Positions 11,437 to 26,477 of a stretch of 29,016 nucleotides of DNA are shown here, piece after piece. The notes beneath the pieces are model-generated. The model saw nothing but the letters and a program-made list of their open reading frames with translations, ran no database searches and was not told the origin of the DNA. The DNA lies in IMG/VR virus record IMGVR_UViG_3300024262_000186, positions 1 through 29,016 of that record. One strand, 5' to 3'. This stretch comes from a virus. Each line of letters begins with the position of its first letter. The stretch's first letter is position 1. Both the position numbers and the translations under genes were made by a program.

Positions 11437-11586
11437 ATGGCATATGAATCTGAAATAACATTTAAACTTAATAGTATGTATGTTTCTATGAAATTTAGGA
11501 ATAAAAACACTGATGGTAAATTCGTTACTCAACCTGAATATGATAGACTTATTAGATTAAAAAAATTAAAAAAGATTCTGAAATGA
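11437..11586 (+). CDS. Hypothetical protein, 49 aa
   Basis: A short frame begins M-A-Y-E-S-E-I-T-F-K-L-N and ends in a Lys/Leu-rich helix (L-I-R-L-K-K-L-K-K-I-L-K). Its stop overlaps the deformylase ATG (ATGA), so the two are probably co-translated. It is the only gene of the window with a textbook ribosome-binding site. No family recognised. Confidence 0.6.
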   Translation: MAYESEITFKLNSMYVSMKFRNKNTDGKFVTQPEYDRLIRLKKLKKILK

Positions 11587-12017
11587 TTTTAGATGTAATA
11601 AAATATGGGGAACAGAATTATAATAAATTAAGATTAAAAAATATTGATGTAAAAAAGGAAAACCCTTTTTTACAAAAACTTATTGATGATATGTTTGAAA
11701 CTACCAATAAAAAAAGTGGGATTGGTTTAGCAGCACCTCAAGTTGGAATTAATCTTAATTTATTTATAATTAATTTACCAGAATTTAGAGAAGTTTTTAT
11801 TAACCCTGAAATACTTCTTGAAGGATTAAATATCCAAATTAGAGAAGGATGTTTAAGTTTTCCGAACATGGAATTCCCTGTTAATAGGCGACAAATAGTT
11901 AAAGTTAAATTCTATGATAGAAATTGGACATTAAGACAAGCTGAATATAAAGACATGGAAGCCATTGTTATTCAACATGAATATGATCATTTAAATGGGA
12001 AATTAATAATTGACTAA
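11583..12017 (+). CDS. def: Peptide deformylase
   Basis: All three signatures are intact: G-I-G-L-A-A-P-Q (46-53), E-G-C-L-S (88-92) and Q-H-E-Y-D-H (131-136). C90, H132 and H136 bind the catalytic metal and E133 is the general base. The enzyme removes the formyl group from the initiator methionine of new proteins. At 144 residues it lacks the C-terminal extension of many bacterial enzymes, as is usual for phage versions. It overlaps the 49-residue gene upstream and the small membrane gene downstream, so it belongs to one operon. Confidence 0.95.
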   Translation: MILDVIKYGEQNYNKLRLKNIDVKKENPFLQKLIDDMFETTNKKSGIGLAAPQVGINLNLFIINLPEFREVFINPEILLEGLNIQIREGCLSFPNMEFPVNRRQIVKVKFYDRNWTLRQAEYKDMEAIVIQHEYDHLNGKLIID

Positions 12018-18558: not shown

Positions 18559-18832
18559 ATGGAAACAATTTGTAATTGAAATTCGAGCATCGGAGGGTGG
18601 CAATGACTCCAAATTATTAGTTAATGATTTAACTGGTATTTATTCAAAATCTTGTCGTAATAATAACTTCTCTTATACAGTAGAGACCAAACCTGGTATC
18701 ACTTCTATTTAGCTGACTGGTAAGGGTGTATCCAAATACTTTAAAAATGAAAGCGGTTCTCACTGCTTTGTAAGAACACCACCAACCGAAAAAAACGGCA
18801 GAACACAAACAAGTTTTATAACAGTAGCAATA
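18559..18832 (+). pseudogene. 5' part of RF1-like release factor gene, with frame change and in-frame TAG
   Basis: From 18563 the frame encodes K-Q-F-V-I-E-I-R-A-S-E-G-G-N-D-S-K-L-L-V, the start of release-factor domain 2. A TAG at 18711-18713 falls between T-S-I and L-T-G-K-G-V-S-K-Y-F. The frame then continues through N-E-S-G-S-H and T-P-P-T-E-K-N-G-R into the downstream reading frame. P-P-T fits the P-x-T anticodon-like motif of RF1 (UAA/UAG). The only upstream ATG (18559) is one frame off: A-T-G-G-A-A-A would need one G less to give M-K-Q-F-V. Read as is, it stops at UGA after six codons. This is either decay, sequence error or recoding. Confidence 0.7.
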
Positions 18833-19240
18833 ATGAATTCTATAAAAAAGGTAGAATTTAAAATTGATAAAAATGAAGTAACTAAAAAATACACATGCTC
18901 AAGTGGCAACGGTGGACAAAATGTGAATCGCATTCAAAGTTGTGTTCAATTAACTCATAAACCAACTGGTATTCAAGTTAAATGTCAAGACACAAGAGAT
19001 CAATATAAAAATGAAGTCATTGCTTGGGAACGATTGACAAATAAATTGAAAATTATTGAAGATGATAAAAAATATCATAAACATAAAAATTTTAGAAATA
19101 ACCAAATAGGTAATGGTAGTAGAGGTGGAACTAAAAGACGAACATATAGAATTTTAGAAAACATTGTTTATGATCATATTACTGGTAAAAAATGTAGATG
19201 GAAAGACATATTAAAAGGTAAAATTGAGTTGTTATCTTAA
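18833..19240 (+). CDS. Release factor catalytic (GGQ) domain, C-terminal part of an RF1-like factor
   Basis: The 135-residue open part holds the peptidyl-tRNA hydrolysis motif S-S-G-N-G-G-Q-N-V-N-R near residue 24, then L-T-H-K-P-T-G-I-Q-V-K-C-Q-D-T-R and a conserved tail (G-S-R-G-G-T-K-R-R-T-Y-R, V-Y-D-H-I-T-G-K-K, L-K-G-K-I-E-L-L). The frame is continuous with domain 2 coding sequence upstream apart from one TAG, so the ATG at 18833 is probably internal. If it is used, the product would be a GGQ-only protein about the size of ArfB, which rescues stalled ribosomes, but its tail is RF-like rather than ArfB-like. The GGQ motif is intact. Confidence 0.8.
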   Translation: MNSIKKVEFKIDKNEVTKKYTCSSGNGGQNVNRIQSCVQLTHKPTGIQVKCQDTRDQYKNEVIAWERLTNKLKIIEDDKKYHKHKNFRNNQIGNGSRGGTKRRTYRILENIVYDHITGKKCRWKDILKGKIELLS

Positions 19241-19324: not shown

Positions 19325-19347
19325 TAAAATAATGAAATTTAATGAAA
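19325..19347 (+). repeat. Left imperfect inverted repeat of the TnpB element
   Basis: It begins T-A-A-A-A-T-A-A-T-G-A-A-A and overlaps the tnpB stop codon. It matches the right end on the opposite strand at about 20 of 23 positions. AT-rich composition makes some of this fortuitous. Confidence 0.5.
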
Positions 19348-20544
19348 TTCATTTATTTTTACATTTTGATTCATCATTCTACGAGGACCTAATGGTTTAC
19401 TCTCCTGATGCGTTAATTCGGGTGAACTCAACCCTATTTTAATTCTTTCTCCTTCGTTCCTGATATTAATTGCTGCGTTTATATCTCTATCATGTAATGA
19501 ATTACATTCAGGACATAACCATGTTCTATCCTTTAATGTCAAATCATCTTTCTTATATCCACAACAACTACATAACTTACTTGAAGGAAACCACCTACTA
19601 ACCTGTATGACCTCACGGTCATACCATTCAGCCTTATAAGTCAACATCGTCTTAAACCTGTTTAAACTTAATTCCTGTATTGACTTCGCTAATCTATGGT
19701 TTTTTAACATTCCATTAACATTCAAATCTTCAATCACTATAGTTTGGTTTTCGCTAAGTAATTGATTTGTAATGGAATGTAAATAATATTCTTTAATATT
19801 ATTTAATTTATTATAATATTTTGCAAGTTTAATCCTTGCTTTTTGTTTATTGTTACTTTTATTTGCTTTCCTTGATAAACTTCTATGAAGTTTTGACAAT
19901 TTCTTCTGGTTGTTACGTTTAGACTTCAAATTTCCATAAGTTTGTCCTTCGGACGTAATGATGAAATCTTTAATCCCTAAATCCAAACCAATCATATTAT
20001 TTTTAGCAGGATTTAATGTTTTATTATCACGATCAATCAATAAACTAAAATAGTATTCTCCAGATTTATTTCTAGATAATGTTCCTGATTTAATTTTAGA
20101 TTGGTTTTTATTTAAATATTTTTCATCTTCTCTTGAACATTTATAATGAATTGATTTCAAAGCATTAATGATATTAATTCTATTTCCTTTTACTCCAGAA
20201 ATAGCATCAACAGGAAACCTACATGATTGTTTTTCATGTCTTGATTTATATTTTGGAAATCCATTTCCTTGTTTAAAGAAATTTTTATAAGCCCTATCAA
20301 GGTTTATCAATGATTGTTGTAATACCTTTGAATGACTTTCTTTAATCCAATTATATTCAGATTTTAATGATGTAAGGAATTTACCAATTTCTCCAAAACT
20401 TGTAGATTTCTTCTTTTCTTTATATTCGGTGATTTTATAATTAAGGCATTGGTTATAAACAAATCTTGATGTACCTAATAATTTATTGATATAAATTATT
20501 TGATCATCAGATGGGTATAATCTTATTTTAATTGCCTGTAACAT
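19339..20544 (-). CDS. tnpB: TnpB, RNA-guided nuclease of an IS200/IS605 element
   Basis: The start M-L-Q-A-I-K-I-R-L-Y-P-S matches the family N-terminus, so the ATG at 20544 is preferred over 20568. All RuvC residues appear intact: G-L-D-L-G (D188), V-I-E-D-L-N-V (E272) and R-D-I-N-A-A (D354). The zinc finger has C-S-C-C-G and C-P-E-C. At 401 residues it is full length. TnpB cuts DNA guided by an RNA made from the element's own end, which favours element retention. The guide RNA should lie at the tnpB 3' end and left boundary (about 19325-19450), where G-T-T-C-A-C-C-C-type pairing is possible. No tnpA is present. Confidence 0.9.
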   Translation of the reverse strand: MLQAIKIRLYPSDDQIIYINKLLGTSRFVYNQCLNYKITEYKEKKKSTSFGEIGKFLTSLKSEYNWIKESHSKVLQQSLINLDRAYKNFFKQGNGFPKYKSRHEKQSCRFPVDAISGVKGNRINIINALKSIHYKCSREDEKYLNKNQSKIKSGTLSRNKSGEYYFSLLIDRDNKTLNPAKNNMIGLDLGIKDFIITSEGQTYGNLKSKRNNQKKLSKLHRSLSRKANKSNNKQKARIKLAKYYNKLNNIKEYYLHSITNQLLSENQTIVIEDLNVNGMLKNHRLAKSIQELSLNRFKTMLTYKAEWYDREVIQVSRWFPSSKLCSCCGYKKDDLTLKDRTWLCPECNSLHDRDINAAINIRNEGERIKIGLSSPELTHQESKPLGPRRMMNQNVKINEFH

Positions 20545-20596
20545 AAAGGTATATATAAATATAATCATATCAAAAACACTATTTTAATGAATTATT

Positions 20597-23340: not shown

Positions 23341-24351
23341 ATGGAAAGAAAATTAGTAAGTATAGAAACTATATTAGATATTCAACCTATTAAAGGTGCG
23401 GATAGAATTGAGGTTGCTAGGGTTAAAAATTGGAAAGTTGTAGTAGGAAAAAATGAGTATAAAATAGGGGACGAAGTTGTTTATTTTGAAATTGATTCAT
23501 TTTTACCTATTAAAGAAGAATTTGAATTTTTGAGAAAATCATGTTATAAAAAAATGGGTGATGATATTGAAGGATTCAGATTAAAAACTATTCGATTAAG
23601 AAATCAAATTTCACAAGGTCTAATTATGCCTACTAGTATCTTACCATCAAATAAATTCAAAATTGGTGATGATGTCGCAAATACACTTGGGGTTATAAAA
23701 TATGACCCACCTCTACCAAAAGAATTAGAAGGCGAAGCAGTAGGATATTATCCTTCTTTTATTCAAAAAACAGATGAAGAAAGAATTCAAAATTTGACTT
23801 CAGAGTATGATGAATATAAGAAAATTAAATTCTTTGCTTCTGAAAAAATGGATGGTACATCATCTACGTTTTTCTTAAATAACAATGAGTTTGGTGTTTG
23901 TTCAAGAAATGTACAATTAATATTTAATCCAGAAAATATTTTTGGTAGAATATCAATTAAATACAATATTGAAGAAAAATTAAGGAAACTTAATAAAAAC
24001 TTAGCTATTCAAGGAGAAATTATAGGTGAAACAATTAAAGGAAATAAATATAATATTAAAGGACAAAAATTATTAGTGTATAATATTTTTGATATCGATA
24101 AATATGAATATTTATCAAAAAGTGAAATGCTACAAATATGCGAAGAACTTGACCTTGAAAATGTACCTACCATTTATTCTAATTTTGTTCTACCCGAAAC
24201 AATAGAAGAATTGTTAAAACTCGCTTATGGAAAATCAAAACTGAATAATGAAATTATACGTGAAGGTTTAGTTTGGGTTTCAGAAGATTGTGAGATCAGG
24301 ATATCATTTAAAACGATTTCTGATGAATTTTTATTGAAATATGGTGAATAA
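23341..24351 (+). CDS. RNA ligase, Rnl5 (DRB0094) type
   Basis: The N-terminal 110 residues form an OB-like domain (I-Q-P-I-K-G-A-D-R-I-E-V-A, K-V-V-V-G-K-N-E-Y-K-I-G-D-E-V-V-Y-F), the layout of Deinococcus DRB0094. The ligase domain has the nucleotidyl motif E-K-M-D-G-T-S with K169 as AMP acceptor. F-G-V-C-S-R-N (motif Ia), A-I-Q-G-E-I-I-G-E (III), Y-N-I-F-D-I-D (IIIa), E-G-L-V-W-V-S (IV) and R-I-S-F-K-T-I-S (V) follow. It joins RNA ends using ATP. A likely use is repair of tRNAs cut by host anticodon nucleases, consistent with the CCA enzyme in the window. Confidence 0.85.
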   Translation: MERKLVSIETILDIQPIKGADRIEVARVKNWKVVVGKNEYKIGDEVVYFEIDSFLPIKEEFEFLRKSCYKKMGDDIEGFRLKTIRLRNQISQGLIMPTSILPSNKFKIGDDVANTLGVIKYDPPLPKELEGEAVGYYPSFIQKTDEERIQNLTSEYDEYKKIKFFASEKMDGTSSTFFLNNNEFGVCSRNVQLIFNPENIFGRISIKYNIEEKLRKLNKNLAIQGEIIGETIKGNKYNIKGQKLLVYNIFDIDKYEYLSKSEMLQICEELDLENVPTIYSNFVLPETIEELLKLAYGKSKLNNEIIREGLVWVSEDCEIRISFKTISDEFLLKYGE

Positions 24352-25808: not shown

Positions 25809-26477
25809 ATGAGTGAATTTAGAAAGTATGCAACAAAACACATGGGTATCAGTTCATTAACATTAGATAGGTTTAGTAATATCCAAGGGAATTATGTGTC
25901 CCCTACAATTATTGAAGAACGACAACTCAATGTCGCACAAATGGATGTTTTTTCAAGGTTAATGATGGATCGTATTATTTTTCTAGGATCTGGTATTGAC
26001 GATAATGTAGCAAACATTATCCAAGCACAATTGTTGTTCCTTGAATCTTCGGATAAAGATAAAGATATTCAAATTTATCTTAATTCCCCAGGAGGCGGGG
26101 TACACGCTGGTCTTGGGATATATGACACCATGCAATATATCAATCCTGATGTCGCAACTATTTGTACTGGTATGGCAGCATCTATGGCTGCTGTTTTATT
26201 ATGTGCTGGAGCAGCAGGTAAAAGGACAGCATTAACTCATTCAAGAGTTATGATTCATCAACCAATGGGTGGAGCATCTGGTCAAGAATCTGATATTGCA
26301 ATTATGGCAAAACAAATATTAACTCTTAAAGATGAATTGTACCAAATTATAGCAACTCATTCAGGGACAGATATCAAGCAAGTTGAAAAGGACAGTGATA
26401 GGGATTATTGGATGAAAGCGTCTGAAGCGAAGGAATATGGGATGATTGATGAAGTTTTAGTTCGTCCTAAAAAATGA
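25809..26477 (+). CDS. clpP: ATP-dependent Clp protease proteolytic subunit
   Basis: A full-length ClpP of 222 residues with intact catalytic triad: S125 in G-M-A-A-S-M-A-A, H150 in M-I-H-Q-P-M-G-G, D199 in S-D-R-D-Y-W-M. The family landmarks I-I-F-L-G (56-60), I-Y-L-N-S-P-G-G (89-96) and Y-G-M-I-D-E-V (210-216) are present. ClpP forms a barrel that degrades proteins fed by a Clp ATPase. No such ATPase is visible here, so it may pair with a host ClpX or ClpA or act in head maturation. It overlaps the next gene by 4 bases. Confidence 0.95.
   Translation: MSEFRKYATKHMGISSLTLDRFSNIQGNYVSPTIIEERQLNVAQMDVFSRLMMDRIIFLGSGIDDNVANIIQAQLLFLESSDKDKDIQIYLNSPGGGVHAGLGIYDTMQYINPDVATICTGMAASMAAVLLCAGAAGKRTALTHSRVMIHQPMGGASGQESDIAIMAKQILTLKDELYQIIATHSGTDIKQVEKDSDRDYWMKASEAKEYGMIDEVLVRPKK

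Follow-up and report, generated by a model that had tools for sequence, protein, structure and literature searches.

An internal stop codon probably gates the synthesis of a domain-1-less RF1-type release factor in huge phages

The viral DNA stretch analyzed here (the window; 29,016 nucleotides, positions 1 to 29,016 of IMG/VR record IMGVR_UViG_3300024262_000186) carries a release-factor gene that probably senses how well translation terminates. Comparative sequence data point, with good probability, to an RF1-type factor devoid of domain 1, the synthesis of which would be gated by an internal stop codon, so that the protein would be made only when termination is slow. The conserved feature is the presence of a stop, usually UGA, and the UAG is the variant found in the window.

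The reading frame lies on the plus strand (18578–19240) and closes with a TAA at 19238–19240. Translation from 18560 to 19240 yields EIRASEGGNDSKLL upstream of a single internal stop, which is flanked by ITSI and LTGKG and followed by PPTE, GGQ, and the terminal ELLS. This stop is the TAG at 18711–18713, in agreement with the sequence-only reading. Downstream of it come the PPT stop-codon recognition tripeptide (PxT, RF1 type; 18779–18787) and the GGQ catalytic motif (18911–18919), both located by translation. Pfam finds the RF-1 domain (E-value 6.6e-26) and PCRF (7.7e-18) in this frame, and an RF1-like factor made of domains 2–4, with PPT and GGQ, as first proposed from the letters, is thus confirmed by both translation and Pfam. 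Domain 1 is deduced to be absent because the PCRF profile is entered only at position 94. Among the NCBIfam models, those of RF1 score best (174 bits), followed by RF2, RFH, and ArfB, and none reaches its cut-off. The prfA models match from position 105–113 onward with 169–174 bits, for cut-offs of 400–423; the protein, thus, has the PxT and GGQ of bacterial RF1 (prfA), and falls short of a full-length RF1 by its missing domain 1 and by a score below the curated cut-off. Its best relatives of solved structure are RF1, and the read-through product, as modeled by AlphaFold2 (pLDDT 87.4), matches ribosome-bound RF1 with a TM score of 0.90 over the query. Within the family, GGQ is found in 207/207 members and PxT in 201/207; two interrupted members, L011 (RTSNGRIHSS) and L064 (RDRTGKVHTS), have lost the PxT loop and retain GGQ.

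The release-factor gene is followed directly by a TnpB-like gene on the opposite strand (19339–20568, minus strand) with OrfB_IS605 and Cas12f1-like TNB domains. The window also contains an RNA ligase with a PHA02142 OB-fold (23341–24351), related to RNA repair, as well as a peptide deformylase (11583–12017) and an ORF judged ClpP-like by eye (25809–26477), both related to protein synthesis or turnover.

Scans of IMG/VR and GTDB contigs yielded 234 distinct loci, then 13 more, most of which come from metagenomic assemblies. Uninterrupted relatives, which according to the sequence-only reading would speak against a programmed stop, are rare: the interruption is present in 182 of the 187 distinct viral copies, a proportion (97%) that holds for these clades and not for all phage release factors, the loci having been recruited with mostly interrupted seeds, one scan excepted. 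The 13 later loci come from a scan seeded with uninterrupted copies, and 13/13 are interrupted. The stop is found about 31–46 codons past the start of the EIRAAEGG motif. In viral copies of the readthrough type, the gate consists of TGA (102 copies), TGA+TGA (13), TGA+TAG (2), or TAG (2), and in those with a +1 change, of TGA (49), TAG (12), or TAA (2). Domain-1-less copies on GTDB contigs comprise about 31 interrupted and two open ones (L272 and L275), while three (L280, L318, and L322) are not classable by the anchors used; true prfA genes from the same scan are never interrupted (0/24). Bacterial carriers, named by record title, include Minicystis rosea (L279), Nannocystis species, Variovorax WDL1 (L325), and Achromobacter anxifer. 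The same kinds of interruption occur in the bacterial-contig loci L325, L326, L331 (Achromobacter anxifer), L279, and the Nannocystis loci L318–L333, some of which belong to cultured strains. No further copy of the window's own phage species was found among the viral contigs scanned. Cultured phages with a domain-1-less factor were also sought in a phage collection, which gave uncultured huge phages only; its remaining matches resemble host release-factor genes, as judged by record labels and sizes rather than individually.

The alignment shows that the TAG itself, the conservation of which had been proposed as a check, is not shared by most relatives. TGA occupies this codon in L001–L004, L006, L007, and L008, and in the huge-phage records LR756501, LR756502, and LR745206, a coincidence of position beyond what chance would give. 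An extra TGA is found 13 codons (LR756501) or 8 codons (LR745206) before this shared codon, and LR756504 has the upstream TGA only. L045 and L048 also have a TAG at the place of the window TAG. A second copy with UAG as the lone gate, L396, has an additional TAA toward the end of the frame and is possibly decayed.

Can these stops simply be sense codons? Stop reassignment is established for Lak and crAss-like phages, and many release factors carry Trp where the largest readthrough clade has its UGA. The family might thus assign an amino acid to UGA (or UAG) throughout the genome, an explanation that we nevertheless regard as very improbable. Among the 47 ORFs of the window, 7 end in TGA and 2 in TAG, and in four relatives TGA terminates 8–21% of the ORFs of at least 100 aa, with at most one long extension. 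Across 38 of these phage records, nearly all the PCRF domain matches contain an internal stop, while the roughly 30 DnaB_C matches contain none and ClpP has one stop in each of 3 out of 24 cases. In addition, the position and identity of the gate turn over while a stop persists. The eight phages inspected encode 43–62 tRNAs each, and a partial sample of about 250 anticodons from them includes tRNA-Trp(CCA) and no suppressor. Genome-wide recoding is therefore rejected on the basis of stop usage, ORF extension, and control genes, with neither TGA nor TAG being read as sense throughout the genome. The release-factor gene sits among tRNA genes in LR756501, which fits a role in translation.

The stop is passed in two ways. 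In the main set, the frame is unchanged across the stop in 121 loci and changes by +1 in 79, and the part following the gate is open for at least 140 codons in 199/200 loci. All 79 +1 sites have CTT directly before the stop (63 TGA, 14 TAG, and 2 TAA), and 68 of them have a Shine–Dalgarno (SD)-like element just upstream; these relatives thus carry the elements of a prfB-type +1 site. The same-frame stops are nearly always TGA, with TAG in the window. A tree with 142 representatives implies no fewer than 10 switches of by-pass mechanism and 19 of stop identity, although this tree was quickly built, has many weak branches, and includes the columns around the stop, with stops masked as X. A stop was thus kept in this stretch while its letters and the way past it changed. 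Around the gates of the +1-type loci, the stops of nearby genes (from crude ORF calls) are TAG and TGA in a ratio of 80:101 for TAG gates and 197:441 for TGA gates. TAG-gated loci are, in relative terms, richer in TAG gene stops nearby (odds ratio of 1.77, p 0.001), which mutation bias could cause.

The nucleotide context also points to programming. T never follows the gate TGA in three groups (0/48, 0/46, and 0/57), compared with 24–29% after ordinary TGA stops of the same loci (28/95, 18/74, and 113/437; Fisher p 3e-6, 1e-4, and 3e-7, respectively), a deficit partly due to codon choice for the next residue. The gates thus lie in a weak termination context, which extends to the window, where C (18714) follows the TAG. 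UAG is ordinarily less leaky than UGA. On both sides of the stop, dN is well under dS, indicating purifying selection; between the window and its nearest relative, L001, dN is 0.155 before and 0.222 after the stop, for dS values of 1.68 and 1.10, which are near saturation. An in-frame, conserved stop with coding selection on both sides, as expected for readthrough, is therefore observed. The conserved stop position and this two-sided selection oppose both decay of the gene and use of the GGQ domain alone, which the sequence-only reading had offered as alternatives.

RNA structure gives a less uniform picture. The largest readthrough clade, which has its UGA at codon 31, shows a 17-pair stem that starts 7 nt 3′ of this UGA, with a fold z of −2.38 at the stem versus −0.1 to −0.8 elsewhere, and 90% of cells are paired versus 26–46% when the stem is slid. 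It includes 30 double changes versus 8.7 in shuffles, a covariation that holds for a subset of 22 sequences from which outliers were removed and which was picked after the folds were seen. RNAalifold applied to the wide codon-31 set, outliers included, returned no conserved structure, and none was found downstream of the stop in the window's own clade.

The start region of the window gene raises a separate question. As pointed out from the sequence, its sole ATG (18559–18561) is one frame away from the release-factor frame, and the zero-frame leader (ATG GAA ACA ATT TGT AAT TGA, plus strand, 18559–18579) meets a TGA at codon 7. A +1 step at this TGA (18577–18579) would give METICN|EIRASEGG, equal in length to the METIIIEIRASEGG of L001, and the product length predicted from the sequence thus agrees with that relative. 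L001 starts with ATG GAA ACA ATA ATA ATC GAA ATT, and the window is one base longer. The conservation of the extra base after ATG, another proposed check, did not hold, as it is absent from all eight relatives compared and lacks the CTT of the 79 other +1 sites. The codon before the leader TGA is AAT rather than the CTT slip codon of prfB, and no frame change occurs across the TAG; the window thus has no prfB-type +1 site. Alternatives to a candidate +1 step are a window-only one-base insertion, a non-AUG start in the release-factor frame, a sequencing or assembly error, or a recent lesion. In any case, the window can give a full product only if translation starts at a non-AUG codon or is recoded a second time. 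This counts against the gating explanation, as do the negative structure search in the window's clade, the lower leakiness of UAG, and the lack of a suppressor tRNA in the partial anticodon sample.

The same observations bear on whether the window copy is a decaying pseudogene or an assembly error, in which a TGA turned into TAG and a base was inserted after the ATG, with its relatives being programmed. The extra base unique to the window, without slip codon, speaks for this, together with the finding that UAG alone serves as a gate elsewhere only in L396, with its additional TAA. We consider it unlikely, since the TAG falls precisely at the gated codon with a leaky C next to it, about 175 codons of the window copy have no other disruption, and dN/dS relative to L001 is low. 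Moreover, L045 and L048 share the place of the TAG, and TAG is used at 14 +1 sites. Restart downstream of the stop, giving an ArfB-like rescue factor reduced to the GGQ domain, is hardly credible. The internal ATG at 18833–18835 (plus strand) opens a 135-aa frame, and a weak ArfB match exists, but its 40.6 bits remain below the cut-off of 100. This ATG lies 3′ of the PPT motif and is missing in relatives such as L004. In addition, the PPT segment that separates it from the stop is conserved and evolves under purifying selection.

Gated synthesis of the full factor, the preferred explanation, would work as follows. The gate falls late in the first quarter of the coding sequence. If release factors act fast there, the ribosome would be freed after some 50 residues, a peptide of no use. 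Under slow termination, the gate would instead be decoded by a near-cognate tRNA (in the window and some 120 relatives) or passed by a +1 slip at the CTT-stop (in some 90 relatives), and the full factor would be produced in either case. We infer that ribosomes get past the gate often enough to matter, that how often they do so depends on release-factor activity, and that the product acts in termination during infection. From its PxT specificity, the factor should read UAA and UAG, and not UGA. A UGA gate would thus report on the host RF2, a form of cross-control, while a UAG gate would sense RF1, be it the host's or the phage's own, with possible self-feedback. Direct negative feedback via the UAG gate of the window is plausible, because an RF1-type product should read UAG. 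Such self-feedback cannot be the general rule, because UGA gates dominate and a PxT factor should not read UGA. The idea of the sequence-only reading that a stop acts as a sensor in a release-factor gene, therefore, stands, while the UAG-specific feedback that it proposed does not hold in general and is possible only in the UAG-gated minority.

The autoregulation of prfB is textbook knowledge, and a readthrough-type control of a release-factor gene had been proposed before prfB was sequenced. As in the +1 frameshift of prfB (RF2), an internal stop gates the gene's own full product, and the +1-type relatives share the CTT-stop and the SD-like element. Unlike in prfB, the factor is of the RF1 type and devoid of domain 1, its gate interrupts domain 2, TAG is among the gate codons, and most copies, including that of the window, use same-frame readthrough. 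Among 8,164 bacterial prfB motifs, 98.6% have TGA, 1.4% TAA, and none TAG, and no such control was found for prfA (PMC12421855). According to a 2016 review, a same-frame UGA of this kind is absent from bacterial RF2 genes, and a UAG/RF1 counterpart was unknown, with the exception of a giant-virus factor (PMC5009743). In this class-I factor of Mimivirus and Megavirus (R726/mg280), one stop is passed by readthrough and another by frameshift (PMC3521657), and the window would have the same pair if its start is real. R726/mg280 is, however, of the eRF1/aRF1 type and from an amoebal virus, while the window factor is bacterial RF1-type, from a phage, and unrelated in sequence apart from GGQ. We tentatively entertain, with somewhat less than even confidence, a more specific scenario: the window UAG would be a readthrough sensor for its own RF1-type product and would make the gene an RF1/UAG equivalent of prfB, a +1 step at the codon-7 UGA providing a second lock, as in Mimivirus, and the gate would have been rebuilt many times across huge phages with UGA, UAG, or UAA. 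RFH (PrfH) is likewise a class-I bacterial release-factor relative without domain 1, but the window protein scores 70.6 bits for PrfH, below the cut-off of 166.65, and keeps PPT; in addition, the upstream ORF in the window is 167 aa long, and no rtcB-sized gene lies directly upstream. Al-Shayeb et al. 2020 (PMC7162821) include RF1 and RF2 in their list of huge-phage translation genes, and a word search of this text returned no mention of in-frame stops or frameshifts.

In the part of the literature searched, a stop-gated switch is known for bacterial RF2 and not for RF1-type genes. The family described here adds over a hundred same-frame phage cases, of which a few have UAG, as well as RF1-type genes that carry a prfB-like cassette with TAG, in some cases in the genomes of cultured bacteria. 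Annotation is likely to split these genes or to call them pseudogenes. Overall, these findings suggest that huge phages, which are equipped with dozens of tRNAs, also meter termination.
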